A DNA stretch of 64,000 nt. Source: Candidatus Binatia bacterium (lineage in GTDB: Bacteria; Desulfobacterota; Binatia; HRBIN30; BPIQ01). The position numbers and the translations under genes are program-made. The stretch's first letter is position 1, and each line of letters starts with the position of its first letter. Below the pieces are notes generated by a model that had not been told where the DNA came from, ran no database searches, and saw nothing but the letters and a program-made list of their open reading frames with translations. The stretch spans positions 186,001 to 250,000 of the forward strand of contig BPIQ01000002.1 in assembly GCA_026004195.1 (NCBI GenBank), in the 5' to 3' direction. This document shows positions 31,730 through 46,252 of the stretch, in pieces.

Positions 31730-33413
31730 ATGGAAAAACCTCGTTCCGCACCCGGCACGGATTTCATCCGCGCCACGATCCGAGAGGACCTCGCGGACGG
31801 GAAAGTACGGCGGGCGCGTCGCCACGCGCTTTCCGCCCGAGCCGAACGGCTACCTCCACATCGGGCACGCGAAGTCCATCTGCCTGAACTTCGGCGTGGC
31901 CCGGGAGTTCGGCGGGACGTGCAACCTCCGGATGGACGACACGAATCCCACGACCGAGGACATGAAGTACGTCGAAGCCATCCAGGAGGACGTCCGCTGG
32001 CTCGGCTTCGAATGGGACCGCCTCACGTTCGCCTCGGACTACTTCGAGCAGCTCTACGAGTACGCCGAGGAGCTCATCCGGCGCGGCAAGGCGTACGTCG
32101 ACAGCCTCTCCGCCGACGAGATCCGGGAATATCGCGGGACGCTCACCGAACCGGGGCGCGAGAGCCCCTACCGCTCGCGTTCGGTGGAAGAAAACCTCGA
32201 CCTCTTCCGGCGGATGCGCGCCGGAGAATTCCCCGACGGGAGCCACGTGCTCCGGGCGAAGATCGACATGGCGTCGCCCAACCTCAACATGCGCGACCCC
32301 ACGATCTACCGCATCCGGCGCCACCACCACTACCGCACGGGCGACCGGTGGTGCATCTACCCCATGTACGACTTCGCCCACTGCATCTCGGATTCCATCG
32401 AGGGGATCACCCACTCCCTCTGCACGCTCGAGTTCGAAGACCACCGGCCGCTCTACGACTGGTTCCTCGAGGAGCTCGGCCTCTACCACCCGCAGCAGAT
32501 CGAGTTCGCGCGCCTCAATTTGAGCCACACGGTGCTGAGCAAGCGGAAGCTCCTCCGGCTCGTCCGAGAGGGGCACGTGCGCGGCTGGGACGACCCGAGG
32601 ATGCCGACGATCTCGGGGCTCCGGCGGCGGGGGTACACGCCCGAAGCCATCCGCGAGTTCTGCGAGCGGATCGGGGTGGCGAAAAAGAACAGCGTCGTCG
32701 ACATCGCGATGCTCGAGCACTGCGTGCGCGAGGACCTGAACCGGCGGGCGCCCAGGGTGCTCGCGGTCCTGCGCCCCCTGCGCGTCGTCGTCACGAACTG
32801 GCCCGAAGGCCAGGTCGAAGAGTTCGAGGCGGTCAACAACCCCGAGGACCCTTCCATGGGGACCCGCAAGGTGCCCTTCTCGCGGGTCCTCTACATCGAG
32901 CGCGACGACTTCCGCGAACACCCGCCGAAAAAGTTCTACCGGCTCGCCCCGGGCCGGGAAGTACGGCTCCGCTACGCCTGCTACGTCACGTGCCGGGAAG
33001 TGGTGAAAGACGAGCGCGGCGAGGTCGTGGAGCTTCGCTGCACCTACGACCCCGAATCACGGGGTGGCTGGACTCCGGACGGCCGCAAAGTCCAGGCCAC
33101 GATCCACTGGGTTTCCGCCGCGCACGCGCTCGACGCCGAGGTGCGGCTCTACGACCACCTTTTCCTCAAGCCCGACCCCGACGAGGACGAGGACTTTCTT
33201 TCTTCTCTCAACCCGAACTCCCTCGAGGTCGTCTCCGCGAAAATCGAGCCCAGCGTCGCCGGCGCCCCGCCCGGAACCCGCTACCAGTTCGAAAGGCTCG
33301 GCTACTTCTGCGTCGATCCCGACTCGACCCCCGAGCGCCTCGTCTTCAACCGGACCGTGACGCTCAAGGACACCTGGGCCAGGATCGAGAAGAGCGGCAA
33401 GGCGGACGAGTGA
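31730..33413 (+). CDS. glnS: Glutaminyl-tRNA synthetase, frameshifted near the start
   Basis: About 560 residues after correction. The first 24 codons ([20 protein letters not shown]) are in one frame and the rest in another. Removing the G at 31805 yields [19 protein letters not shown], then [13 protein letters not shown], the class I HIGH signature, and [18 protein letters not shown] replaces KMSKS, as in GlnRS. The GlnRS-specific C-terminal beta-barrels follow. Charges tRNA-Gln. tRNA-Glu, tRNA-Gln and gltX follow within 1 kb. The break is very likely a base-calling error in a housekeeping gene. Confidence 0.9.
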
Positions 33414-33576
33414 GGGGGGACCGGGTAGCGAAACGCGCGGCGACGAGGCCCCGCGCTCCGACGGACGCGGCGGCGAAAACGAACCGGCTCCCGGAGCTGC
33501 GGGGCGGCAGTCATGTCCGTTTGAAACTCCGAGTTCTCCCGCGCTAGAGTCGCAGGCTGGCGCTTCGCCGCCGGGG

Positions 33577-33934
33577 ATGCCATCTCGACCCCGCGGGAAG
33601 AGCCGCGAGCAAACGGGACGTAGCTATGCCTTCCGCGAGACCCCCAAGCAAAGCGGGCGACCCCGCCGCGACACCAAGAAGAAGCTCGCGCATCGCATCG
33701 AGATCAACCCCCCGGATCATGCTCGGGAAACCGGTGATTCGGGGCACGCGGCTCACGGTCGAGCTGATCCTGCGAAAACTCGCAGAGGGCGCCACGGAAG
33801 CCGAACTTCTCGACGCCTATCCGAACCTGAGAGCCGAGGACATCCGCGCAGCCATGGCCTACGCGGCGGACACCCTGGCACACGAGGAGACGCTCGTTCT
33901 GGATTCCCGCCGGGATAAGCCTGCCCGCCGCTGA
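33577..33934 (+). CDS. DUF433 antitoxin-like protein, frameshifted in a C run
   Basis: The frame begins at 33577 and reads KKKLAHRIEINP; six Cs at 33708-33713 shift it. Dropping one C gives RIEINPRIMLGKPVIRGTRLTVELILRKLAEG, the classic DUF433 signature, followed by AELLDAYPNL and DIRAAMAYA. DUF433 proteins are antitoxins of DUF5615 toxins, with a winged-helix DNA-binding body, and usually autoregulate. The start is uncertain, as the first 35 residues look non-conserved. The partner follows after 3 bases. Confidence 0.8.
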
Positions 33935-33937
33935 GGA

Positions 33938-34291
33938 ATGCGCTTTTTGGCGGACGAGAGCTGCGACTTCGCCGTCGTGCGTGCGCTGCGGAACGACGGC
34001 CACGACGTCGCGGCCGTCGCCGAAGACCAGCCGGGCGCGACGGACGATGTCGTCGTGTCCCGCACGCTCCACGAAAACCTCACCGAAGACAAAGATTTTG
34101 GACGGCTCGTCTTTGCCAGCGGGAAAACCATCCCTGGCGTTCTACTGCTTCGCTTCCCGGCCAGTTCCCGGATGGCCATGGTGGACACGGTGCTGAAAGT
34201 CGTGCGCAGCGAGGCGGCAAAAATTGCAGGCCGATTCGTCGTGGTCCAACCGGGCCGTGTGCGGGTATCCCTTCGCAGACGAGGCAGCTGA
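33938..34291 (+). CDS. DUF5615 PIN-like toxin, possibly with a short internal deletion
   Basis: 117 residues. MRFLADESCDFAVVRALRNDGHDV and TEDKDFGRLVFA carry the acidic residues of the PIN-like nuclease site; LLRFPASSRM follows. The stretch between DDVVVSRTLHEN and LTEDKDFG lacks a few residues where family members usually read ...RVLLTEDKDFG, so a short in-frame loss is possible. Partner of the DUF433 antitoxin 3 bases upstream, forming a type II toxin-antitoxin module. Confidence 0.8.
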   Translation: MRFLADESCDFAVVRALRNDGHDVAAVAEDQPGATDDVVVSRTLHENLTEDKDFGRLVFASGKTIPGVLLLRFPASSRMAMVDTVLKVVRSEAAKIAGRFVVVQPGRVRVSLRRRGS

Positions 34292-34312
34292 CCCTGCCCC
34301 CGCGGACAAAAG

Positions 34313-34384
34313 TGGTCCCAAGGGGAATCGAACCCCTGTTACCGACGTGAGAGGCCGGTGTCCTAGCCGCTAGACGATGGGACC
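34313..34384 (-). tRNA. tRNA-Glu (anticodon CTC)
   Basis: Perfect 7-bp acceptor (GGTCCCA with TGGGACC), anticodon arm with loop CTCTCAC, giving CTC, and a T arm with loop TTCGATT. CCA not encoded. 72 bases. Confidence 0.93.
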
Positions 34385-34423
34385 ACACGCGGCGGGCGCC
34401 GGCCGGAGCCAACGCCCGCCCAC

Positions 34424-34499
34424 TGGCTGAGGCGGAAGGACTCGAACCTTCATTCGCCTGATCCAGAGTCAGGTGGCTTGCCAATTAGCCCACGCCTCA
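34424..34499 (-). tRNA. tRNA-Gln (anticodon CTG)
   Basis: Acceptor TGAGGCG pairs with CGCCTCA; loop CTCTGGA gives the anticodon CTG; T loop TTCGAGT. The 3' GCCA is encoded. Sits 39 bases from tRNA-Glu and 61 from gltX. Confidence 0.94.
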
Positions 34500-34560
34500 T
34501 TGCCAAGCGCTAGGTTATGTAACGCACCCCGACCAAGTCAAGGCGCACTCCCGCCTCGTT

Positions 34561-35985
34561 TCACTCCGTGCTCCCTGCGGGTCCACTCCCACTTTGCGCG
34601 AGCACCCGGTCGATCCGGGCAAGCGTGCGTTCGCGACCCAGAAGGAACAGCACCTCGTAGATCCCCGGACTCGACGTCCCTCCGGTGACGGCGACACGCA
34701 CGGGCTGCGCGATCTTCCCGAGACCCACGCCGAGACGCTCCCGGAGTGCCTCGAAGCACCGCCGGAGCGACTCCTCGCTCCACTCCGCGAGCCGCTCGAG
34801 CTCGCCTCGGACCTCCCGGAGGACCGCCCTGCCCTCGGGGCCGAGGTGCCGGGTGGCAGCTTCCGGGTCCGGGGAAACGTCTTCCGAGAAGAAGTAGTGC
34901 ACCATGTCCGCGAGCTCGACGAGCGTCCTCGCCCGCTCGCGAAACGCCTCGACGAGCCGCACGAGCCAGGCGGGGTCCGGGGGAATCGCGTAGCCCCTGG
35001 CCTCGAGGAAAGGACGCGCGAGCTCGGCCAGACGCTCGGGCGGGGTCCGTTTCATGTGCTGGGCGTTCACCCAGAGGAGCTTCTCGGGGTTGAACACCCC
35101 CGCGGACTTGCCCACCGCCTCGAGCGTGAACTTCTCGATCAGCTCCTCGCGCGTGAAGATTTCCTGATCGCCGTGGGACCAGCCGAGCCGCACGAGGTAG
35201 TTGACGACGGCGTCCGGGAGGTAGCCCTCCTCCCGGTAAGCCCCGACGGAAGTCGCTCCGTGGCGTTTGCTCAGGCGGGCCCGGTCGAGCCCGAGAATCA
35301 GGGGAACGTGGGCGAATTCCGGCAGCGGAAAGCCGAGCGCCCGGTAGACGAGAATTTGCTTCGGAGTGTTCGCGATGTGGTCCTCGCCCCGGATCACGTG
35401 GGTGATCCTCATCTCCGCGTCGTCCACGACCACCGCGAAGTTGTAGGTCGGCGAGCCGTCCGAGCGCAGCACGATCCAGTCGTCGAGATCGGAGTTCTGG
35501 AAGGCGATGGCTCCCCGGATCCGGTCGACGAAGCCCGTCGTTCCCTCGAGGGGCGAGCGAAAGCGGAGTACCCGGTTCTCGCCCGGGCCGAGCCCCAGGT
35601 TCCGGCAGGTCCGGTCGTAGAGGGGGTTGCGTCCCTCGGCGAGAGCCGCCTTTCGCTTCTCCTCGAGTGCCTCCGGCGGGCAGCCGCACCAGTAGGCGGC
35701 TCCGGAGCGCCAGAGACGCTCCGCTTCCTTCCGGTAGAGTTCCGCCCGCTCGCTCTGGAAAAAAGGCCCTTCGTCCCACCGGAGCTCGAGCCACTCGAGA
35801 GAATCCAGGATGGCGCGCACGGCCTCGGGCGTCGAGCGCTCGCGGTCCGTGTCCTCGATGCGCAGGACGAACCGGCCGCCGTGGTGGCGGGCGAAAAGGT
35901 AGTTGAAGAGCGCCGTACGGGCCCCGCCGACGTGGAGAAAGCCCGTGGGGCTCGGCGCAAACCGCGTCCGGACCTCCATCGTCAA
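34561..35985 (-). CDS. gltX: Glutamyl-tRNA synthetase
   Basis: 474 residues, class I. RTRFAPSPTGFLHVGGARTA carries the HIGH-like motif; LSKRHGATSV is the KMSKS-like loop; IRGEDHIANTPKQ is conserved. The C-terminal helical anticodon-binding domain is complete. Charges tRNA-Glu, and tRNA-Gln in organisms without GlnRS; here glnS is nearby, so direct glutaminylation is likely. Starts at 35985 (MTMEVRTR) or at the second Met at 35979. The tRNA genes follow on the same strand. Confidence 0.95.
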   Translation of the reverse strand: MTMEVRTRFAPSPTGFLHVGGARTALFNYLFARHHGGRFVLRIEDTDRERSTPEAVRAILDSLEWLELRWDEGPFFQSERAELYRKEAERLWRSGAAYWCGCPPEALEEKRKAALAEGRNPLYDRTCRNLGLGPGENRVLRFRSPLEGTTGFVDRIRGAIAFQNSDLDDWIVLRSDGSPTYNFAVVVDDAEMRITHVIRGEDHIANTPKQILVYRALGFPLPEFAHVPLILGLDRARLSKRHGATSVGAYREEGYLPDAVVNYLVRLGWSHGDQEIFTREELIEKFTLEAVGKSAGVFNPEKLLWVNAQHMKRTPPERLAELARPFLEARGYAIPPDPAWLVRLVEAFRERARTLVELADMVHYFFSEDVSPDPEAATRHLGPEGRAVLREVRGELERLAEWSEESLRRCFEALRERLGVGLGKIAQPVRVAVTGGTSSPGIYEVLFLLGRERTLARIDRVLAQSGSGPAGSTE

Positions 35986-36082: not shown

Positions 36083-36650
36083 ATGGAACCGACGCAACTT
36101 CGTTCCGCCGGGAGTCGCGAGGGCATCCTCGGGATCCTCGCCCACTGGGCTTTTCTCTACGCGTTCTGGGTCGTTCTCTCGGGGATGTTCGACCCCTTCC
36201 ACCTCGGAGCCGGTCTCCTTGCGACGGGGCTCGTCGCCGTCCTCACGCACGAGCTCCAGTACTTCGAGCACGGCTCGGGCGGCCGGCTCAACCTGGCCCT
36301 CGCTCTGGCTCCCTGGCACCGGCACCTGCGTTACGCTCTCTGGCTCTGGTGGGAAATCGTGAAAGCGAACGTGCAGGTCGCCAGGATCGTGCTCCACCCG
36401 AAGTTGCCGATTCGCCCCGCCATGATCCCCTACCGAACGCTTCTCCGGAGCGATCTCGGGAAGACCCTTCTCGCCAACTCCATCACGCTCACGCCGGGCA
36501 CCGTCACGGTGCTCGTCGAAGAGCGACGAACTCTGGATCCACGCGCTCGCGCAAGACGAGAGCACGCTCGCGACGATCGCGGCCATGGAAGAGGGGATCG
36601 CCCGGGCTCTCCCGGGGATCGAACCCGTAGGGAAGGAATCGGCGGCATGA
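36083..36650 (+). CDS. mnhE: MnhE/MrpE (MbhA) subunit, frameshifted near 36524
   Basis: About 188 residues after correction. Two or more hydrophobic segments near the N-terminus (ILAHWAFLYAFWVVLSGMF, LLATGLVAVLTHEL), then LANSITLTPGTVTV, the diagnostic MrpE motif. Dropping the C at 36524 gives DELWIHALAQDE and an end at a TGA that overlaps the next ATG (ATGA). Without it the frame runs into mnhF and makes a false fusion. First gene of a Mrp/Mbh-type cation/proton antiporter cluster in the inner membrane. Confidence 0.85.
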
Positions 36651-36916
36651 ACGCTCTGCTCGTCGCGTTTTCCGCCGGCACGCTCGCCATGGTCCTCGTC
36701 ACCGGAACGGTGGCTATCGTGCGCCCCGGTGTTCTCGACCGGATCATCGCCGTCGGGGTTCTGGGAACGAAAACGACCGTGCTCCTCGCCGCCGTCGGCC
36801 TCGGCTTCGGGCGGGTCGAGATGTTCGTCGACATCGCGCTCACCTACGCCCTCCTCAACTTCCTTCTCGTCCTGGCGGTGGCGAAGTACTTCGCACGGGG
36901 AGGGGAAGTACCGTGA
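36647..36916 (+). CDS. mnhF: MnhF/MrpF (MbhB) subunit
   Basis: 89 residues, three transmembrane helices: LLVAFSAGTLAMVLVTG, then the VRPGVLDRIIAVGVLGTKTT stretch typical of MrpF, and a last helix LLNFLLVLAVAKYF. Overlaps mnhE and mnhG by 4 bases each, so coupled. Small membrane subunit of the antiporter complex. Confidence 0.9.
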   Translation: MNALLVAFSAGTLAMVLVTGTVAIVRPGVLDRIIAVGVLGTKTTVLLAAVGLGFGRVEMFVDIALTYALLNFLLVLAVAKYFARGGEVP

Positions 36917-37209
36917 ACGTCCTCGGCAGCGTCCTTCTCGCGGTCGGCGGTTTTTTCCTTTTCGCGGGAACGGTCGGTCTCCTGCGACTTCCCGACTTCT
37001 ACACGCGGCTCCACGCGACCGGGAAAACCGACACGCTCGGCGCTTCGCTTTCGCTCCTGGGTCTCGCGTGTTTCGCGGGGTGGTCGCTCGTCGCACTCAA
37101 GCTCGTCGCCGTCGCCGTCTTCCTTCTCGTCGCGAACCCCACGGCCACGCACGCGCTCGCCCGCGCGGCCTACCTCCGGGGCATCGTGCCCTGGGGAACG
37201 CGACCCTAG
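36913..37209 (+). CDS. mnhG: MnhG/MrpG (MbhC) subunit
   Basis: 98 residues from a GTG that overlaps the mnhF stop. GSVLLAVGGFFLFAGTVGLL and RLPDFYTRLHATGKTDTLG are the MrpG signature, followed by a third helix ending in NPTATHALARAA. A small membrane subunit. 21 bases separate it from the MbhD-like gene. Confidence 0.92.
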   Translation: MNVLGSVLLAVGGFFLFAGTVGLLRLPDFYTRLHATGKTDTLGASLSLLGLACFAGWSLVALKLVAVAVFLLVANPTATHALARAAYLRGIVPWGTRP

Positions 37210-37230
37210 GGCACCCGAGGGGGCTCTCGC

Positions 37231-37464
37231 GTGGTCTCCGTCCTGCTCGTTTTCCTCTTCGTGGTCGGGCTCGCGGCCCTCGAGGTGCGGGACCTTCTCG
37301 CCTCGATCTTTCTCCTGGGCGCTTACAGCTTCCTGGCCGCGCTCACGATGGCACGCATGGGGGCGGTGGACGTGGGGTTCACGGAAGCCGCGGTGGGAGC
37401 GGGTCTCACCGGCATCTTCTTCCTCATGGCCGTCGTGCGCACGGCGAGGAGGACACGGGATTGA
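37231..37464 (+). CDS. MbhD-like subunit (DUF4040)
   Basis: 77 residues, GTG start after a GAGGGGGC site. LAALEVRDLLASIFLLGAYS and MARMGAVDVGFTEAAVGAGL are typical of MbhD, which corresponds to part of the C-terminal domain of MrpA. Here it is a free protein. The TGA overlaps the TTG of the next gene. Confidence 0.85.
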   Translation: MVSVLLVFLFVVGLAALEVRDLLASIFLLGAYSFLAALTMARMGAVDVGFTEAAVGAGLTGIFFLMAVVRTARRTRD

Positions 37465-37733
37465 ACGCTCTCCGGTTCCTTTTTCTCGCCGTCGCGGCGG
37501 GGGTGCTCTTCCTCGGGGCCAGGGCCCTCCCGCCCGTTCGGGCCCTCGACGCACCCATCCGGCTCCACGTGGAGTCCTACTACGTGCGGCACGCGCTCGA
37601 GCAGACGCGGACGCCGAATCTCGTGACGGCCATCCTCGCGGATTACCGGGGCTACGACACCTTCGGGGAGACGACCGTCATCTTCGCCGCGGGCCTGGCC
37701 TGCTACTTTCTGCTTCGAGGTACGAAACCATGA
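37461..37733 (+). CDS. MbhE-like subunit (C-terminal MrpA portion)
   Basis: 90 residues, TTG start overlapping the previous stop (TTGA). One N-terminal helix, then a periplasmic part, and NLVTAILADYRGYDTFGETTVIFAAG, a motif of MbhE and the MrpA C-terminus. Stop overlaps the next ATG. With the preceding gene it provides the tail of MrpA as two free proteins. Confidence 0.82.
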   Translation: MNALRFLFLAVAAGVLFLGARALPPVRALDAPIRLHVESYYVRHALEQTRTPNLVTAILADYRGYDTFGETTVIFAAGLACYFLLRGTKP

Positions 37734-38164
37734 TCCACGCCGACGAGAGCGTCGTCGTTCGCACGACCGCGAGGTTCCTCGTGCCCTTTCTGCAGGTCTT
37801 CGCGCTCTACGTGATCGTCCACGGGCACGAAAGCCCCGGCGGCGGCTTCCAGGGAGGAGCCATCCTCGGGGCGAGCCTCATCCTGACGCGCCTGAGCCAG
37901 GGCCGGGGCATCCGGCGTCCGTTCCCCTCGGGCGACGGCCCCATCCGACTCGGAGCGTTCGGGGTTCTCCTCTACGGTTCGATCGGCCTTCTCCCCGTGC
38001 TCCGCGGTGCCCCCTTCCTCGACTACGCACGCCTTCCCTGGTTCGCCGCGCACGAACCCGAACTCCGCGCGCTCGGGATCCTCGGAGTCGAGATCGGGGT
38101 GGCCGCGGCCGTGTGCGGGGTCATGGTGTCGATTTTCGAAGACCTGGCACCCAAGGAGACCTGA
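37730..38164 (+). CDS. mnhB: MnhB/MrpB (MbhF) subunit
   Basis: 144 residues, four transmembrane helices. VVVRTTARFLVPFLQVFALYV and HGHESPGGGFQGGAILGASL are the MrpB signature. Starts with an ATG overlapping the previous stop. Part of the coupled run from mnhE. Confidence 0.92.
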   Translation: MIHADESVVVRTTARFLVPFLQVFALYVIVHGHESPGGGFQGGAILGASLILTRLSQGRGIRRPFPSGDGPIRLGAFGVLLYGSIGLLPVLRGAPFLDYARLPWFAAHEPELRALGILGVEIGVAAAVCGVMVSIFEDLAPKET

Positions 38165-38183
38165 GCGGCGGGAGCGGGGGGCG

Positions 38184-38537
38184 GTGTTCGAGCACTTCGA
38201 ATACTGGGCGACTCTCGCCCTTTTCCTGCTGGGCCTCTACGGCGTGCTCGCGAAGCGGAATCTCGCGAAGAAGCTCGTCGGACTCGGCATCGTGCAGAGT
38301 GCGACGATTCTCTTTTTCATCGTTCTGGGTCTCCGGGAGGGGGGGACCATCCCCATCGTGCCCCACCACGCGGGACACGAACCGCTCGTCTACATGAGTC
38401 CCCTCCCTCAGGTCCTGATGCTGACCGCCATCGTGGTCGCGGTGAGCACGAGCGGGGTGGCGTTCGCCCTTCTCATCCGAATCTACCGCACCTCGGGAAC
38501 GCTCGACGAACGCGAGGTGCTCGAGCGACTCCCTTGA
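38184..38537 (+). CDS. mnhC: MnhC/MrpC (MbhG) subunit
   Basis: 117 residues, GTG start after GGAGCGGGGGG. NuoK-like fold: LYGVLAKRNLAKKLVGLGIV, SATILFFIVLG, then PLPQVLMLTAIVVAVSTSGV with the conserved TAIVV...ST. Stop overlaps the TTG of mnhD. Confidence 0.92.
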   Translation: MFEHFEYWATLALFLLGLYGVLAKRNLAKKLVGLGIVQSATILFFIVLGLREGGTIPIVPHHAGHEPLVYMSPLPQVLMLTAIVVAVSTSGVAFALLIRIYRTSGTLDEREVLERLP

Positions 38538-40033
38538 CCACCTCGCAGCTCCCCGCCCTTCTCGTCCTCTCGCCGCTGCTCGGGTCGTTTTTCGTCGTCC
38601 TCCTCGCGCTGCGTTCCCCCGGGCGCGCGAGAACGATCTCTCTGGTCTCCGTGGGTCTCGGCCTTCTCGCCTGTCTCGGGACGCTCGCTCGGACGCGCGA
38701 CGGAAACGTGCTCCTCTACGCCTTCGGGAGCTGGGCCGCGCCCTACGGAATCGAGTACCGGGTGGACGGCCTCGCGGCGTGCGTGGCGACGCTCGTCGGG
38801 GGAACGGCTTTCGTTTCCCTTTTTTTCGCGGCCCCCACGGCCGCCCGGGAACTCCGCGGGCGCGAAGCCCCCTTTTTCGCCTTCCTCTGCCTCTTCGTCG
38901 CCGCGCTCGAAGGCATGATCGTCACCGGGGACCTTTTCAACCTCTACGTCTTCCTCGAGATCACGGCTCTTTCCGCCTACACCCTGGTCGCCGCCGGCGG
39001 CCCGCGCTCGGTGGTCGCGAGCTTTCGCTACCTGGTCCTCGGGACGCTCGGCGCGACCTTCTACCTTCTCGGGCTCGCGTTTCTCCTCGCCACCACGGGC
39101 ACGCTCAACATGGCGGACATGGCGGAGCTTTTGCGCCAGAGGGCTCCCGACCCCGCGCTCGCCGTGGCGGTGACCTTCGTCGTGGCGGGCCTGGGCCTCA
39201 AGATGGCTCTTTTCCCCCTCCACGGATGGCTTCCCGACGCGTACACGTACGCGCCGTCGGCTTCGGCGCCTTTTCTCGCCGCGCTCACGACCAAAGTGGC
39301 CGCCTTCGCGCTTTTTCGCGTCCTTTTCGGCGTCCTCTGGCCGGCAATCGAGCCTTACAGGGGCACACTCACCTTCGCACTGGGTTGGCTCGCCGTGGCC
39401 GGCGTCCTCGGCGGCTCGGTCATGGCTCTCGTGCAGCACAAGACGAGGCGGCTTCTCGCTTATTCGAGCGTGAGCCACCTCGGAATGATCGCCATGGGCC
39501 TCGCGCTGGCGAACCCCCTGGGTCTCGCGGGCGCGCTCCTCCACATCCTCGCACACGGCCTCGGCAAAGGGGGGCTCTTCCTCGCGACGGGTGCGGTGGA
39601 ATTCCGGAGAGAGGGAGGCCGGGTGGAAGACTTCCGCTCGGCCTCGCACGACCTTCCCCTCACGACGACATCGTTCACGCTGTGTGCGCTCTCGCTCGTG
39701 GGTCTCCCTCCCACGCTGGGCTTCTTCAGCAAGTGGTACCTCCTCCTCGGGGCGCTCGAGGCACGCCGGTATTCGTTCGCCGTGGCCCTTCTCGCGGGGA
39801 GCTTGCTCGGAATCTGGTACTTCTTCCGCGTGCTGGAGGGAGCTTACTTCGGCAAACCGACCCCGGAGGTCGCGAAGCTCCGCCCCGAAGTTCCGCTCTC
39901 GATCCTGCTTCCCACCCTCCTTCTGGCCGCGTCGGTTCTGGTCCTGGGGTTCCTGGTTCGGCCCTTGATGGACCACTGGATCGTGCCGAGTCTCGGGGCT
40001 CTCCGCCTCGGTACCGCCGCGGGCGCGCCATGA
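38534..40033 (+). CDS. mnhD: MnhD/MrpD (MbhH) antiporter-like subunit
   Basis: 499 residues, about 14 transmembrane helices, TTG start overlapping mnhC. LYVFLEITALSAYTLVA holds the conserved Glu, GLKMALFPLHGWLPDAYTYA the Lys/His motif, and AALTTKVAAFALFR the second Lys of the NuoM/N fold. Proton or sodium channel subunit. Stop overlaps the next ATG. Confidence 0.92.
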   Translation: MTTSQLPALLVLSPLLGSFFVVLLALRSPGRARTISLVSVGLGLLACLGTLARTRDGNVLLYAFGSWAAPYGIEYRVDGLAACVATLVGGTAFVSLFFAAPTAARELRGREAPFFAFLCLFVAALEGMIVTGDLFNLYVFLEITALSAYTLVAAGGPRSVVASFRYLVLGTLGATFYLLGLAFLLATTGTLNMADMAELLRQRAPDPALAVAVTFVVAGLGLKMALFPLHGWLPDAYTYAPSASAPFLAALTTKVAAFALFRVLFGVLWPAIEPYRGTLTFALGWLAVAGVLGGSVMALVQHKTRRLLAYSSVSHLGMIAMGLALANPLGLAGALLHILAHGLGKGGLFLATGAVEFRREGGRVEDFRSASHDLPLTTTSFTLCALSLVGLPPTLGFFSKWYLLLGALEARRYSFAVALLAGSLLGIWYFFRVLEGAYFGKPTPEVAKLRPEVPLSILLPTLLLAASVLVLGFLVRPLMDHWIVPSLGALRLGTAAGAP

Positions 40034-41508
40034 TTCCCGCACTCGACGCCGGGGCTCTCGTCTTCCCCCCGTTCGCGGCGTACGCGACCGCCGCGGCCGT
40101 CCTCGCCTGGGGCCGAAAGCCGCGCGCCCGCGAGGCGGCGAGCCTGGCCGGCGCCGCGCTGGCCGTCGCTTCCCTCGCGCCGTGGGTTCCACGAGTCGCC
40201 GCGGGCGAGCGACCCGAGGTCGTTCTCCTCCGGGTTTTTTCGGGTGCGAGCTTCGCCTTGCGGGCGGACCCCTACGGGCTCGTGTTCGCGCTCGTCGCCT
40301 CCTCGCTCTGGTTCGCGACGACGGTCTACTCCATCGGCTACATGCGCGGCCTCCGGGAACACGCGCAAACCCGCTACTACGCGAGCTTCGCGGCTGCGGT
40401 GGGATCCGCCCTCGGCGTGGCACTCGCCGCGAACCTGCTCACCCTCTACGTGTTCTACGAAGCCCTCACGCTCGCCACCTACCCGCTCGTCGTCCACAAG
40501 GAATCCGCCGAGGCTCTCCGCGCGGGCCGCAAGTACCTCGCCTATACGCTCACGGCAGGGCTCCTCCTCCTCGCCGGAACGGTGGCCCTTTACTGGACCA
40601 CGGGCACGCTCGAGTTCCGGCCGGGCGGAATCGGCGCACTCGAGTCGGCTCCGAGAACCGGGGTGCGAGTGCTCTTCTGGCTGCTCGTCGCGGGCTTCGG
40701 CGTGAAAGCGGCTCTCGTGCCGCTCCACGGATGGCTCCCCACCGCCATGATCGCGCCGACCCCGGTGAGCGCCCTCCTCCACGCCGTGGCGGTCGTGAAG
40801 GCCGGCGTTTTCGGTTGCGTCCGGATGGTGGCCTTCGTCTTCGGGCCCTCGCTTCTTTCGGAAAGCGGCGACGCGGCCGTCTTGTGCGGGATCGCGTCGG
40901 TGACGATCCTCGCCGGCTCGCTTCTCGCCCTCGTGCAGGACAACCTCAAGCGGCGGCTCGCGTTCTCGACGGTAAGCCAGCTTTCCTACATCGTTCTCGG
41001 GGCGGCGCTGCTGACTCCGTCGGGCTGGCTCGGCTCCGGATTCCATCTCGTGAACCACGCCTTTCTCAAGATCACGCTCTTTTTCTGTGCGGGCGCCATT
41101 TACGTGGAGACGGGATACGAGCGCGTGAGCGAGCTCGGGGGGATCGGCCGGCGGATGCCCCTCACCATGCTGGCCTTCGCCCTGGCGTCGCTCGGGCTCG
41201 CGGGAATCCCACCCATGGGTGCTTTCTGGAGCAAGTGGTATCTCTGCCTCGGGTCCCTCGAAGCCCACGAGATCGTCTTCGCGCTCGTGCTCGTGGCGAG
41301 CGGACTCCTGAACCTCGCTTACTTCGTGCCGATCGTCTACGTGGCGTTTTTCGGCCGGCGCGGAACCGCCGCCACCCCGACCGAGGCCCGACCGAGCCTT
41401 CTCTTCCCGTTGCTCGCGACGGCCGTCGTCTCCGTGCTCCTGGGGCTCTGGCCGGGGCTGGGATTCGGGCTTTTCGAACTCGTTCGCGCGGCTCTTCCGG
41501 TCCGATGA
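40030..41508 (+). CDS. Second NuoM/NuoN/MrpD-like antiporter subunit
   Basis: 492 residues. FYEALTLATYPLVVHK (Glu), FGVKAALVPLHGWLPTAMIA and HAVAVVKAGVF (Lys) keep the proton-channel residues. Closer in feel to MrpD/NuoM than to NuoL. Overlaps neighbours by 4 bases on each side. In Mbh clusters hydrogenase genes follow MbhH; here this subunit does. Confidence 0.88.
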   Translation: MIPALDAGALVFPPFAAYATAAAVLAWGRKPRAREAASLAGAALAVASLAPWVPRVAAGERPEVVLLRVFSGASFALRADPYGLVFALVASSLWFATTVYSIGYMRGLREHAQTRYYASFAAAVGSALGVALAANLLTLYVFYEALTLATYPLVVHKESAEALRAGRKYLAYTLTAGLLLLAGTVALYWTTGTLEFRPGGIGALESAPRTGVRVLFWLLVAGFGVKAALVPLHGWLPTAMIAPTPVSALLHAVAVVKAGVFGCVRMVAFVFGPSLLSESGDAAVLCGIASVTILAGSLLALVQDNLKRRLAFSTVSQLSYIVLGAALLTPSGWLGSGFHLVNHAFLKITLFFCAGAIYVETGYERVSELGGIGRRMPLTMLAFALASLGLAGIPPMGAFWSKWYLCLGSLEAHEIVFALVLVASGLLNLAYFVPIVYVAFFGRRGTAATPTEARPSLLFPLLATAVVSVLLGLWPGLGFGLFELVRAALPVR

Positions 41509-41723
41509 CGAGGAAAGCGGTACTCCTCTTTTTTCTCGTAGCGCTCGTGGCCGCGAGCACCGTCTGGCCGGGGAACGAAACAGCCCACTTCGCCTGGGAG
41601 TCTCTGCCGGGATTCTACGCTTTCTACGGTTTTCTCGTCGCCTGGCTTCTCGGCGGAGTCGCCAAGGCTTTTCTGGCCCGGTGGCTCCAGCGGCCTCGCG
41701 AGGAGGGCGAGAGCCATGCCTGA
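41505..41723 (+). CDS. Small two-helix membrane protein of the antiporter cluster
   Basis: 72 residues with two hydrophobic segments (AVLLFFLVALVAASTVW and FYAFYGFLVAWLLGGVAKAF). ATG overlaps the previous stop, and the 3' end overlaps the next gene by 8 bases, so it is part of the run. Family not recognised; may be a stabilising subunit. Confidence 0.75.
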   Translation: MTRKAVLLFFLVALVAASTVWPGNETAHFAWESLPGFYAFYGFLVAWLLGGVAKAFLARWLQRPREEGESHA

Positions 41724-43455
41724 AACTTTTCCACCCGGACTCGTTCTCGCCGCGGGCGCGGCGTTCTTGCCCTTTTTTCCGCGCCCGGTCCGGCGGTGGG
41801 TCGCCGTTCTGGCCCCGGCCCTGGCCTGGGTCGCCCTCTCGCGCCTGCCTTCGGGAGAAGCCTGGACGGCCGACTTCCTCGGCTACCGGATCGTCTGGCT
41901 CGACGTCGATAGGCTCGGCTGGCTTTTCGCCCTCGTTTTTCTCTGGATCGCGCTTCTCGGGGGCCTCTACGGCTGGCACCGCGAGAGGCTCGGCGAAGTG
42001 TTCTTCTCCCTCCTCTACGCTGCCGGCGGCGTCTCCGCGGTTCTTTGCGGGGATCTCCTGAGCCTTCTCGTCTCGTGGGAAGTGATGGCGGTCTCGTCCG
42101 CCTTTCTCGTTTTCTCTCGCGCTCGGCCGTCGGCCTGGGCCGCCGGTTTTCGGTATCTTCTCGTGCACGCGGCCGCCGGGGGATTCCTCCTCGTCGGCGT
42201 TCTCGCGCACGTGCTCGAGACAGGCTCGACCGAACTCGCCGTCTTTTCTCCGGCGAGCACGGGCGGCGCCTTTCTCCTCCTTTCGTTCTGCATCAACGCC
42301 GCCGTGCCCCCGCTCCACGCGTGGCTCCCGGATGCTTATCCCGAAGGCACGGTGTCGGGGAGCGTGTTCCTGAGCGCGCTCACGACGAAGACCGCGGTCT
42401 ACTGTCTGCTGCGGTGCTTTCCGGGGTCGGAGCTTCTCGTCTGGGCGGGCGCCGTGATGGCGCTCTACGGGGTCGTCTTCGCCGTGCTCGAGAACGATAC
42501 CCGGAGGCTCCTCTCCTACCACATCGTGAGCCAGGTGGGGTACATGGTCTGCGGGGTGGGACTCGGGACCCCGCTCGGCCTCAACGGGGCCGCGGCTCAC
42601 GCGTTCTGCCACATTCTCTACAAGGGGCTGCTCTTCATGGGTGCCGGCGCCCTCCTCTACCGGACGGGACGCGAGCGGCTCACGGAGCTCGGCGGTCTCT
42701 TCGGCGCCATGCCGCTCACGTTCCTGCTTTACATGGTCGGTGCGTTCTCGATCTCGGGCGTGCCGCTTTTCAACGGTTTCGTCTCGAAGTCGATGGTCGT
42801 GGCCGCAGCCGCGGAGGAACACCGGGCCGCGATCGTCCTCCTCCTCCAGGCCGCGTCGGTCGGAACCTTCCTTTCGGTCGGTCTCAAGCTTCCCTACTTC
42901 GCGTGGTTCGGCCCGCGGAGGCTCGAAACGCCGCCGCGAGAAGCACCCCGGTCGATGCTTCTGGCCATGGGAGTGGCGGCCGGACTTTGCATCGGTCTCG
43001 GGCTCGACCCCGAGTGGCTCTACGAAAGGCTCCCCTTCCCGCCGGTCCACTACCACCCGTACACGGCCCCCCACGTCTTCGAGGCTCTCCTCCTGCTCGG
43101 CGCCACGGCGCTCGCCTTCGAGTCCTTGCGGGGGCGTCTCGCCCCGAAGGACACGGTGACCCTCGACACGGACGTCTTCTACCGCATCCCCGCACGCTGG
43201 CTCGCGGAGCGGGTCTCGCCCGCTCTCGAAGCCGCGAGCCGCGCGGTCGGGGAGATCCTCGCCCGGCTGGGCTCCGCGGTCTCGGAAGCCGTGAGGAACC
43301 CCGCTCTCTCCGCAGCTCGAATCGCCGGGATCGACCCCGGGCGACTTCCCGCGTTCGACCCGGAACGGCCCCGGATGCCGCTCGGAGTGTCGGCGGCTTG
43401 GCTGCTCGTGCTCTTCGGGATCCTCGGAGCCTGGCTCCTCGGTCTTTCCCTCTAG
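41716..43455 (+). CDS. Third antiporter-like subunit (NuoL/MrpD-like) with C-terminal extension
   Basis: 579 residues. VSWEVMAVSSAFLVFSR (Glu), NAAVPPLHAWLPDAYPEGTV and FLSALTTKTAVYCLLR (Lys) give the channel set; HAFCHILYKGLLFMGAG follows. After about residue 460 there is an amphipathic stretch and a last helix (AAWLLVLFGILGAWLLGLSL), reminiscent of the NuoL-type C-terminal lateral helix, but shorter. Last gene of the cluster; 1 base from the convergent exporter gene. Confidence 0.85.
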   Translation: MPETFPPGLVLAAGAAFLPFFPRPVRRWVAVLAPALAWVALSRLPSGEAWTADFLGYRIVWLDVDRLGWLFALVFLWIALLGGLYGWHRERLGEVFFSLLYAAGGVSAVLCGDLLSLLVSWEVMAVSSAFLVFSRARPSAWAAGFRYLLVHAAAGGFLLVGVLAHVLETGSTELAVFSPASTGGAFLLLSFCINAAVPPLHAWLPDAYPEGTVSGSVFLSALTTKTAVYCLLRCFPGSELLVWAGAVMALYGVVFAVLENDTRRLLSYHIVSQVGYMVCGVGLGTPLGLNGAAAHAFCHILYKGLLFMGAGALLYRTGRERLTELGGLFGAMPLTFLLYMVGAFSISGVPLFNGFVSKSMVVAAAAEEHRAAIVLLLQAASVGTFLSVGLKLPYFAWFGPRRLETPPREAPRSMLLAMGVAAGLCIGLGLDPEWLYERLPFPPVHYHPYTAPHVFEALLLLGATALAFESLRGRLAPKDTVTLDTDVFYRIPARWLAERVSPALEAASRAVGEILARLGSAVSEAVRNPALSAARIAGIDPGRLPAFDPERPRMPLGVSAAWLLVLFGILGAWLLGLSL

Positions 43456-43456
43456 G

Positions 43457-46252
43457 TCAGCCGACCGAGGAACGCGCGCGCACGGGCTCGGCCACCCCGC
43501 GCGCCGCGGGGGCCGGGAGGAGTCGTAGGAGCGCGGGCAGCACGGTGATGGAAGCGAGGAGGTTGCAGCCGATCCCGATCGTCAGCAGGAGCCCCAGACT
43601 GAAAATCCCCCGGTGCTGCGCCACCATGAGGCTCCCGAACCCCACCATGGTGGTGAGCGAACTCAGAACCACCGCCTTGCCCGTGCTGAGCGCGATGACG
43701 GAAACCGCCGTCGAACCCTCCTCGAGGTGCCGGTGCACGATGTGGATTCCGTTGGAGATGCCGATCCCCACGATCAAGGGCAGGAGGATCAGGTTGGCGA
43801 GGTTGAAAGAAAGCCCGCTCGCGCGCATGAGTCCGAGGGTCCAGAGCCCCCCGATTCCCAGGGGAAGAAGCGCAAGGAGCGCGTAGCGAACGTCCCGGAA
43901 ATCCAGGAGCACGAGGACGAGCGTCGCGACCAGGGCGTAGAGGCCGGCCTGCAGGTAGCCGTCCCGCATGCGCCTGGCACTCTCGTAGAAGGAAACGGCG
44001 CCGCCCGTGACTTTCGGGTCCACCGTTCTCAGTGCCGCGACGAACTCGGTGAGGCGGTCGTACTCCCAGATGTCTTCCGAGGGGAAGATCTGCACGAGAA
44101 ATTTTCCCGTGCGGCCCACGAACCTCCGCCGGAGAAGCGGCGGCAGCGTCTCGAGGGTCACGGGTTCGGTCGAGGTGTTCTCGCGGAGGAACCGGACCTG
44201 ATCGGCGAGCTCCGAGAAAAGCTCCCTCTCGAAGGACGCAAGTCGCGACGCCAGGACGGGCTCCGCGACCGTGTCCCAGGAACCCAGGACCCGTGCGAGC
44301 TCCGCCCGCACGGCGTCGAGTTCTTCTTCCGGCGGCTTGCGCGCCGGGTCCCAGCGGTCTTCCCTGTCCTCGCGGAGTTTGAACCGGACGGACTCGAGAA
44401 GCTTGCGCACGCGCCCGGGGTCGGGCCGCGAGCGGGGCTCCGGAGAGAACACCGGAAGGCGGGCGACCAGAGGACGCAACCGCTCGACCTCGCGGATGCG
44501 CGCCTCCTGGTCCGGAGGAATCAGGGAGGCGATGCTTTCGACCCGCGAGACCTCGGGAAGCCTCTCGTAGCGCTCTTCGAGCCGGCGCGCCTCTTCGATC
44601 GTCGACACGACGCTCACGGCGTACTGACTCGAGCGACCGGCTCGCTCGAGAATCTTGCGCTCCCACTCGACCGACTCCGTGCCGGGTGCCTGGAGCCGGA
44701 GAAGGTTGAAGTCCATCCGCACACCGGGAGCGCCCAGCGCCGAAAGCGCGCTCAGGGCGAGACCGGCCCAGAGAACCGTCCTCGGACGCCGGTAGAGTCG
44801 CTCGAGAACCGCGGGCCGCCAGGCGGCGAGTCGGGCGGGGAGGCGCAAGCGGCGGTCGAGCCAGCGGACGAGCCAGGCGGCTTTCCAGCGTTCGTAGAGG
44901 ACGAGCAGGGCGGGGAAGACGGTCAGCATGGCGACCAGACACAGAAGAATCCCCCCGCCGCCGATGACACCGAGCTCCGCGATGCCCGGAAAATCCGTGA
45001 GCGCCATGGCGAAAAACGCGATGGCGAAGGTCAGCGCCCCGGAGACGATGCCCCCGCCCGAATGGACGAAGGTCCGGCGCAAGGCGTCGGCCAGCGACGC
45101 CCCTCGTTCCAGTTCTTCCTCGAAACGCGAGATCAGGTGCACGCCGAAATCGTCGCTCATTCCGATCAGGAACGTGGCGAAGACCACGGTGAGGATCGTG
45201 AGGTGCCCGATCGCCACGGTCGCGAAACCGAACGACCACGCGAGCCCGATCGTGAGAGTCGCGACGGCCAGGAGCGGCCGCGCCACGTCCCGGTAGAAAA
45301 GCACGAAGCAGAGCGCCACACCCGAGAGCGCGATCACCGAGGCGAGGGTCGTGTCGCGGATCGAGACCAGAATCTCCTCGGTGGCGAGCGCCGGCCCCCC
45401 GGTGATGCCGACCTCGACGGTCGGGTGGCGAGAGCGCACGGCTTCGATGTGCTTTCGCACCCGAGCGATGGCTTCCGCCGCCCCGGTCATCACGCTCGTG
45501 TCGTCCGGAACCAGGACCAGGACGAAGACGAGCCTCCTGTCGTCCGAGACGAGAAAGCCGTCCTCGTCGAGGTTGCTGCCCGGGCGCAAGGACTCCCGCC
45601 ACACGGACGTGTACGGCCGCCCCTCGAGCGCGTCCCCGAGCCCCCGGAGAAAGTTGCGCAAAACGGACACGTCGAGGGGGCGGGTGGCCTCGTCCCGGTC
45701 GTCCGCCCCGAGAAAGCTCGAGACGAGATGGCCGACCAGGGCCGAGCTGATCTCGCGGTTGAGGACCCCGAGCAGCGTCTCGAGTCTGGGATCCTCTCCG
45801 ATCGAGCGTACGATGTCTTCGTGCTCTTCGAGCTTTTCTCGGATTTCCTCGAGCTCCCGGGGAGAGAGATAGAGAAGTCCGCGGCCCTGAAGCTCTTCGG
45901 GGCGGATCCGGTAGAGCACCTCGCGAGCCGCCCTGGGATCCGCCTGGAGTCTCGAGGCGAGTTCTTCCGCGAAAGCCTTGGCGGCCCGCAGCCTCGGCGC
46001 CTCGACGACCACGACGAGATCGTCCTTGTCCCCGAACTCCTCCTGGTAGGCGCGGTAGATGCGGACGTATTCCTCGTCGGGAGAGATCAGGTCGTCCCGG
46101 GAAGTCCTGAACGAAAGAAATTCGCGCGTGGCGAACGTGGACACCAGGGCCAGAAGCGCACCGGCCAGGACGACCCACCAGGGAAACCTGTAGGCCAGCG
46201 AGGCGAGCGCCCCGAGAATTTTTTTGCGGAACTCCCGCCGCGCGTCGGTCAT
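43457..46252 (-). CDS. RND/MMPL-family exporter, HpnN-like
   Basis: 931 residues, twelve predicted helices in two halves, each with a large periplasmic loop. TFLIGMSDDFGVHLISRFEEE in the first half and LPLIVGIGISNGIHIVHRHLEE in the second are the MMPL/SSD motifs with Asp or charged residues in helix 4. Hopanoid transporters (HpnN) share this layout; lipid export to the outer membrane is inferred. Start MTDARREFRKK at 46252. Convergent with the antiporter cluster. Confidence 0.82.
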   Translation of the reverse strand: MTDARREFRKKILGALASLAYRFPWWVVLAGALLALVSTFATREFLSFRTSRDDLISPDEEYVRIYRAYQEEFGDKDDLVVVVEAPRLRAAKAFAEELASRLQADPRAAREVLYRIRPEELQGRGLLYLSPRELEEIREKLEEHEDIVRSIGEDPRLETLLGVLNREISSALVGHLVSSFLGADDRDEATRPLDVSVLRNFLRGLGDALEGRPYTSVWRESLRPGSNLDEDGFLVSDDRRLVFVLVLVPDDTSVMTGAAEAIARVRKHIEAVRSRHPTVEVGITGGPALATEEILVSIRDTTLASVIALSGVALCFVLFYRDVARPLLAVATLTIGLAWSFGFATVAIGHLTILTVVFATFLIGMSDDFGVHLISRFEEELERGASLADALRRTFVHSGGGIVSGALTFAIAFFAMALTDFPGIAELGVIGGGGILLCLVAMLTVFPALLVLYERWKAAWLVRWLDRRLRLPARLAAWRPAVLERLYRRPRTVLWAGLALSALSALGAPGVRMDFNLLRLQAPGTESVEWERKILERAGRSSQYAVSVVSTIEEARRLEERYERLPEVSRVESIASLIPPDQEARIREVERLRPLVARLPVFSPEPRSRPDPGRVRKLLESVRFKLREDREDRWDPARKPPEEELDAVRAELARVLGSWDTVAEPVLASRLASFERELFSELADQVRFLRENTSTEPVTLETLPPLLRRRFVGRTGKFLVQIFPSEDIWEYDRLTEFVAALRTVDPKVTGGAVSFYESARRMRDGYLQAGLYALVATLVLVLLDFRDVRYALLALLPLGIGGLWTLGLMRASGLSFNLANLILLPLIVGIGISNGIHIVHRHLEEGSTAVSVIALSTGKAVVLSSLTTMVGFGSLMVAQHRGIFSLGLLLTIGIGCNLLASITVLPALLRLLPAPAARGVAEPVRARSSVG

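Follow-up and report, generated by a model that had tools for sequence, protein, structure and literature searches.

The window analysed here, a stretch of 64,000 nucleotides from Candidatus Binatia bacterium, carries on its forward strand, at 36083-43455 (all coordinates are positions in the window), a cluster of eleven tightly packed genes, some of which overlap by a few bases. These encode MrpE, MrpF, MrpG, MbhD, MbhE, MrpB and MrpC, followed by three antiporter-like subunits, called here D1, D2 and D3, with a small membrane protein, S, located between D2 and D3. Our results make it probable that the cluster is a stand-alone group 3 Mrp-type antiporter exchanging Na+ (or another monovalent cation) for H+, most likely moving the cation out and H+ in. 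It is ordinary for its type and not a new kind of system; its notable parts are the loss in D3 of a lysine in transmembrane helix 7 (TM7) and the partnership of D3 with S. It is about evenly poised whether D3 and S constitute an add-on module in its own right within the Mrp/complex I superfamily, in which the TM7 Lys is permanently lost and which is not a standard proton pump but holds the assembly through a lateral helix or carries a cation at an unpaired Glu.

A group 3 Mrp cluster without MrpA

All proteins of the cluster except S pass Pfam cut-offs and, among the matches listed (the 25 best for each D subunit), the curated NCBIfam cut-offs are passed by D3 and MrpG only (Table 1). The order MrpE-F-G-MbhD-MbhE-B-C-D, continued by two more channel subunits and a 72-residue protein (S, open reading frame (ORF) 41505-41723), had been proposed in the first-pass annotation of this DNA and is confirmed. 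The same holds for its statement that a single large MrpA is absent and that the MrpA tail exists as two free proteins: no protein in the cluster fuses a channel to a DUF4040/MbhE tail, and the tail proteins MbhD and MbhE are encoded by two free ORFs. The genome (3.63 Mb, 6 contigs) contains a single match to MNHE (MrpE), located in the cluster, and has one Mrp cluster. Of the ten genome-wide matches to Proton_antipo_M (PF00361), three lie in the cluster; the other seven belong to two NuoLMN sets on a different contig, and one of these sets is part of an operon with NuoD, NuoE, NuoH, NuoK and NuoL. A canonical MrpA elsewhere in the genome, which the annotation had kept in view as a counterargument, was not seen in searches with PF00361, MrpE and TIGR00940; the last of these, which scored 4/11 candidates, retrieved at E ≤ 1e-80 only the NuoL at C1:1.44 Mb. 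The hydrogenase and DabA genes that the annotation did not see in the cluster are not seen genome-wide either, as neither the NiFe hydrogenase family (NiFeSe_Hases, PF00374; control matches 5/14) nor DabA (PF10070; control matches 2/14) had a match in the genome at E ≤ 0.001.

By definition, a group 3 Mrp system has no mrpA and carries one or several copies of mrpD (PMC8415708; this and the other papers cited are drawn on in excerpt). The cluster has no mrpA, three Proton_antipo_M proteins, and MrpE, F, G, B and C above Pfam cut-offs. The Lys/Glu pair of group 3 channel subunits is present in D1 and D2, while D3 has an Asn. The caveat of the first-pass annotation that an identical family might already have been described proved largely right, as far as the excerpts go (PMC6305446, PMC7784846, PMC13274419). 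In the candidate phylum NPL-UPA2 the layout is given as 'MrpEFGBBBCD, MrpDD' (PMC6305446), and in Verruconatronum as 'MrpEFGBCD1D2D3', although a table in the same paper writes MrpABCD1D2D3EFG (PMC13274419). In the group 3 Mrp of Ca. Nitrospira alkalitolerans, written as mrpA-G in the paper, mrpD is followed by two NuoM/NuoL-like genes (PMC7784846). All three systems have, like the window, E, F, G, B-type, C and D plus two D-like subunits, and the layout strings of NPL-UPA2 and Verruconatronum likewise lack MrpA. In contrast, compared by description only, the excerpts mention neither a missing Lys nor a small protein separating the last two D subunits.

The antiporter half (MbhA-H) of the Pyrococcus membrane-bound hydrogenase (MBH) and membrane-bound sulfur reductase (MBS), together with the stand-alone Mrp of this genus, has the order E-F-G-MbhD-MbhE-B-C-D of the window, and MBH also has MbhD and MbhE as separate proteins; in contrast, the window has no hydrogenase or sulfur-reductase part, and it has two extra antiporter subunits and S. 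The group 1 Mrp of B. pseudofirmus and Anoxybacillus has homologous parts, but its MrpA is one protein, whereas in the window the parts of MrpA are spread over D2, D3, MbhD and MbhE. The DAB inorganic carbon pump differs by its DabA.

To place the cluster among its relatives, a species-genome collection was scanned with the D3 alignment, giving at least 572 stretches, of which the best 80 were fetched. The order is identical to that of the window in 14/80 loci (one of them, L042, is the same contig as the same-order relative L038), and in four of four same-order neighbourhoods chosen for carrying D3 (the small gene of L038 being identified by eye); the gene order is therefore beyond chance. 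In five further loci the gene set is unchanged but mrpB stands second; 35 have D2-S-D3 followed by two further antiporter subunits, without MbhD, and the remaining 26 are incomplete or have another arrangement. According to the record titles, the exact order is found in Chloroflexota, Clostridia, another Bacillota, Methanosarcinales/ANME (anaerobic methanotrophic) archaea, Entotheonella, Eisenbacteria and Melioribacter. Closer to the window, the D3 family is above cut-off in 5 of the 15 genomes of its own order, its own genome included, and in 87 of the 198 sampled genomes of its phylum, Mrp and complex I contexts being counted together.

D3, S and the proposed exchange

Across 138 aligned antiporter-like sequences, of which 37 are D3, the TM7 site is Lys in all 101 D1, D2, MrpA, MrpD and Nuo sequences compared (24/24 D1, 24/24 Mrp D2, 13/13 complex I D2, 5/5 MrpA, 5/5 MrpD and 30/30 NuoL/M/N; two rows labelled complex I NuoM, L056 and L108, are NuoN by the tree and were kept in these counts). 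It is Asn in 37/37 D3, including the 13/13 of complex I, and corresponds to Asn194 in the window. The site lies five residues before the shared Pro of a P-[LFI]-x-x-W motif (ten rows; the Rhizobium D2 has one gap before the Lys). A wider D3 set has Asn there in 89/90 copies and Ser in one; these 90 copies are 89 different sequences from 85 sources, many of them close rhizobial relatives and not independent events, although the D3 clade spans several phyla. The Glu/Lys pair is complete in 24/24 D1 and 24/24 D2, and D3 lacks its Lys. Nevertheless, D3 keeps the TM5 Glu (Glu122), the TM8 Lys (Lys225), the TM10 Lys (Lys303) and the TM12 Lys (Lys358) in 90/90 copies each, and His299 in 89/90, and it has two invariant residues of its own, His151 and Lys391 (90/90 each). 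The Lys/Glu pair is regarded as strictly conserved in channel subunits, and a Lys-His-Lys triad has been described for MrpA and MrpD (PMC9568556). Matched by spacing, D3 appears to keep the counterpart of this triad but not the pair.

In the Bacillus Mrp, the replacements MrpA-K223A and MrpD-K219A abolish activity (PMC5703873), and these residue patterns suggest that D3 would not pump by the standard route. The first-pass annotation had proposed a three-channel Na+/H+ antiporter; the class stands, but the three channels are probably two canonical proton paths, D1 and D2 being the subunits that keep the Glu/Lys pair, and one altered subunit. That all three antiporter-like subunits move protons, with a higher proton-to-cation ratio and with other residues of D3 taking the role of the TM7 Lys, is a possible but rather unlikely alternative. 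The glutamate, lysines and histidine that D3 shares with the channels, as well as its own His151 and Lys391, would fit it; the Lys present in every one of the 101 other sequences, and the loss of function when Ala takes its place in Bacillus, argue against it. A D3 family lacking the TM7 Lys in every copy examined, in Mrp and in complex I, offers a natural test of the need for this lysine in pumping and of the ion count.

The structure of D3 was modelled with AlphaFold2 from 40 aligned sequences. The model (mean predicted local distance difference test (pLDDT) 90.6, predicted TM-score (pTM) 0.85) has the antiporter fold, a long helix at 487-527 and an end helix at 556-578, its confidence from residue 481 onward being 57-82 by block. 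The top Foldseek match is the MrpA of B. pseudofirmus (7qru_A, E 1.3e-22, query TM-score 0.74), and in VIA-align NuoL chains come first (Z 45.2, 526 residues, root-mean-square deviation 6.2 Å), with MrpD at 43.9 and MrpA at 42.5. The model therefore presents D3 as built like NuoL and MrpA, extension included. D2, in contrast, has 492 residues and ends without an extension, although it is nearer to MrpA/NuoL by sequence. One MrpA-type subunit would thus be divided over two proteins, with D2 as the complete channel and D3 providing the lateral helix. The length of the lateral-helix region was considered as a measure of how many subunits it spans, but its medians (71.5 and 85.5 residues in the two Mrp orders, 78 in complex I; one of the eight type-b rows, L067, has masked bases that inflate its length) do not rise with subunit number and are not used as support.

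The small protein S accompanies D3 closely. When frames were picked with a motif score made by hand, 86/90 D3 genes had an S frame directly before them, and the remaining four, two of them at contig edges, gave weak tblastn matches. With tblastn alone, accepting matches up to E = 1, S lies just before 84/86 D3 matches, the exceptions being L043, where the S frame was found separately, and an incomplete D3 located where L048 ends. In L043, L049 and L101 (titled Deltaproteobacteria), two S-D3 pairs follow one another, which ties S to D3 and points to a possible fourth antiporter-like subunit in these loci. S has 65-96 residues in 82 of the 86 frames, and that of the window is predicted as two helices (pLDDT 81.7, pTM 0.48); the consensus of 51 members ends in EDYYD, an ending that the window S does not have. 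No family was found for S in Pfam, NCBIfam or the PDB: the hits in scans of 51 members fell on one or two members each, the best PDB hit had E 0.29, and a match to Pfam DUF3681 was rejected as below cut-off. In a plasmid collection, the Rhizobium S as query retrieved 99 records, all of them Sinorhizobium, Rhizobium, Ensifer, Phyllobacterium or Pararhizobium by the first word of the title. S is conserved in antiporter and respiratory operons that are widespread, and neither a name nor a family model was found for it. The open-access literature searched, itself covered in part, gave no mention of S or of the missing TM7 Lys of D3, and other papers may well report them.

As for the cation-transporting part, MbhD Glu52 is present in 13/13 sequences and aligns with a Glu of MbhD and MbsD in solved structures, MrpF, which aligns with solved MrpF chains, has Arg32 and Asp62 in 13/13, and the TPGT of MrpE (13/13) aligns with Thr113 and Pro114 of B. 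pseudofirmus MrpE, which matter for function (PMC5703873). Nothing in these residues points to a loss of cation transport. In a published Mrp model, protons passing through the Lys/Glu pairs of MrpA and MrpD drive Na+ out near MrpC, the MrpA tail, MrpF and MrpB (PMC9568556), and the stand-alone group 3 Mrp of P. furiosus, which also lacks MrpA, couples Na+ and H+ (PMC8415708). In the exchange proposed here, MrpE, F, G, B and C together with the free MbhD and MbhE would make up the cation module, and D1 (MrpD-like) and D2 (an MrpA/NuoL-like channel), with two complete Lys/Glu pairs, would provide the proton paths. D3, with S as its putative partner, would supply the structural part of MrpA/NuoL, that is, the lateral helix and the anchoring helix, possibly at the far end of the row of subunits. 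It most likely adds no proton path of the standard kind; a cation might be bound at its unpaired Glu, or its role may be chiefly structural.

Several points weigh against this proposal. For the group 3 Mrp of P. furiosus the opposite direction has been proposed, Na+ entering and H+ being pumped out at low pH (PMC8415708), and the direction given here for the window cluster is therefore a guess. Antiport by a three-D Mrp is assigned from sequence, no activity measurement having been found. With its TM5 Glu and its TM8, TM10 and TM12 Lys residues retained in 90/90 copies, D3 may conduct by another path, and, as lateral-helix lengths show no simple step with subunit number, its end position is only inferred. 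Lastly, mrpE, in a detail that the first-pass annotation had overlooked, lies in two frames, offset near 36524, the second frame being closed by a stop codon slightly beyond the beginning of mrpF, and this offset could signal decay or a sequence error. In the same assembly, the second NuoLMN set likewise has its NuoL in two pieces, in two frames (C1:110336-111233; L033, L004), which makes a sequence (indel) error the likelier cause, and mrpE is uninterrupted at the offset point in 4/4 same-order relatives examined. The offset is thus probably a sequence error, and a decayed, non-functional cluster, which the split mrpE would hint at, is very improbable given that the remaining ten genes are open.

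D2, S and D3 in complex I

The 35 loci with D2-S-D3 and two further antiporter subunits belong, in the cases read, to complex I. In L109 and L055, the genes around D2-S-D3 are NuoD, E, F, G, H, I, J, K, M and N or a subset of these, as read from the letters. The annotated record of S. meliloti pSymA settles the identity of the arrangement: its order is J, K, D2, S, D3, M, N, A, B, C, D, E, F, G, while I and H lie close by, and D2 is annotated as 'monovalent cation/H+ antiporter subunit D family protein', S as 'hypothetical protein' and D3 as 'Na(+)/H(+) antiporter subunit D'. A form named 2M complex I was reportedly defined by Chadwick in 2018. In green complex I, two MrpD-like subunits replace NuoL, a description credited to Degli Esposti and Martinez Romero 2016 (PMC9040806). 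The rhizobial green complex I shares with the window homologues of D2, S and D3, arranged in the same order, its D3 having the extension and the TM7 Asn; it differs in its Nuo subunits, the place of which is taken in the window by E, F, G, MbhD, MbhE, B, C and D1. In two Methanosarcinales metagenome-assembled genomes (L051 and L053), the orders S-D3-D1-S-D3-D1-D2 and S-D3-D1-D2-S-D3, with other sequence between, differ from the Mrp and complex I layouts seen elsewhere.

A phylogeny of the channel subunits, suggested as a check in the first-pass annotation, was reconstructed by maximum likelihood from 93 of the 138 aligned sequences (442 columns). D1, D2 and D3 each form a clade of their own, and those of D2 and D3 are shared with complex I, so that the D2 and D3 of the window fall with their rhizobial green complex I counterparts, in agreement with the published MrpD-like description of the latter. 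D1 is supported at 100/99. The D2 of Mrp and complex I (100/100) is placed near MrpA and NuoL with weak support (87/76), and the D3 of Mrp and complex I (100/100) is placed beside D2, MrpA and NuoL, again not fully supported (94/89). The complex I D3 copies form one clade (99/98) nested within the Mrp D3 copies, adjoining three Mrp loci titled Syntrophobacterales, Deltaproteobacteria and Desulfaltia (98/99). The simplest reading of the D3 branching is a transfer of the D2-S-D3 triplet out of an Mrp operon and into complex I. The D2 branching is unusable for the direction of this transfer, since the complex I D2 copies form one clade and the Mrp D2 copies possibly do as well (47/84), which neither supports nor opposes it.

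These relationships bear on a further suggestion of the first-pass annotation, that the cluster might be the membrane arm of an unknown redox complex. Such an arm, with its soluble part encoded elsewhere in the genome, is highly improbable for the window cluster, even though the idea captures something real: D2, S and D3 do occur in the complex I operons of Rhizobium and other bacteria, and the E-F-G-D-E-B-C-D order is that of MbhA-H (PMC8415708). However, the complex I D2 and D3 form clades of their own, the loci carrying them show no mrpE, F, G or MbhD, and the genome has no NiFe hydrogenase match. The cluster is flanked by a glutamyl-tRNA synthetase (GluRS)-like gene on one side and an MMPL protein on the other, with a glutaminyl-tRNA synthetase (GlnRS)-like gene beyond, and no other Nuo subunits were found among these flanking genes. 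The search for a redox module in the flanks of relatives, also recommended by the annotation, was made by comparing the ORFs beside 26 related Mrp-type loci and the window among themselves and inspecting the 40 most shared; no redox gene was seen among these, the flanks being partial because many contigs end near the cluster. The most widely shared flanking ORFs resemble response regulators and other signalling proteins, as read by eye from the letters, with no family search.

In work on unusual forms of complex I, every additional antiporter-like subunit is taken to pump one more ion (PMC9040806). The Asn at the TM7 site of D3 makes extra protons in green complex I less likely: if D3 is indeed not a standard pump, green complex I and three-D Mrp systems gain no extra pumped proton, at odds with the 5 to 6 ions currently proposed.

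Gene list and neighbouring genes

Table 1. Genes of the Mrp-type cluster, with positions in the window
Feature	Position	Strand	Basis
mrpE, N-terminal and membrane part, 147 codons	36083..36523	+	Pfam MNHE, 108 bits
mrpE, C-terminal part in the next frame, 41 codons and stop	36525..36650	+	translation; mrpE open here in 4/4 same-order relatives
mrpF	36647..36916	+	Pfam MrpF_PhaF, 48 bits; PDB relatives are subunit F of MBH, MBS and Mrp
mrpG	36913..37209	+	Pfam PhaG_MnhG_YufB, 98 bits; NCBIfam TIGR01300 above cut-off
MbhD / DUF4040 protein, MrpA tail part 1	37231..37464	+	Pfam MbhD, 55 bits; Glu52 in 13/13 aligned; PDB MbsD, MbhD
MbhE protein, MrpA tail part 2	37461..37733	+	Pfam MbhE, 49 bits; PDB MbhE, MbsE, C-terminal part of three MrpA chains
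mrpB	37730..38164	+	Pfam MnhB, 95 bits
mrpC (NuoK-like)	38184..38537	+	Pfam Oxidored_q2, 75 bits
D1, MrpD-like antiporter subunit, Glu/Lys pair complete	38534..40033	+	Pfam Proton_antipo_M, 198 bits; tree; residues
D2, antiporter subunit nearest MrpA/NuoL, without lateral-helix extension	40030..41508	+	Pfam Proton_antipo_M, 211 bits; NCBIfam PRK07234.1-1, 555 bits, below cut-off 718; tree
S, 72-residue two-helix membrane protein (predicted), conserved, unnamed	41505..41723	+	position before D3 in relatives; prediction; no family matched
D3, antiporter subunit with lateral helix (modelled), Asn194 at the TM7 Lys site	41716..43455	+	Pfam Proton_antipo_M, 148 bits; NCBIfam PRK12668, 669 bits against cut-off 564; model; residues

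The MMPL-family transporter (43457-46252) is on the reverse strand, convergent with D3. On the other side, the region 31896-35985 holds the GlnRS-like gene on the forward strand near the GluRS-like gene on the reverse strand, and a tRNA-Glu (ctc) and a tRNA-Gln (ctg) are located between the two, at 34312-34499. A DUF433 and DUF5615 gene pair, in a layout often met in toxin-antitoxin pairs, is found at 33626-34291.

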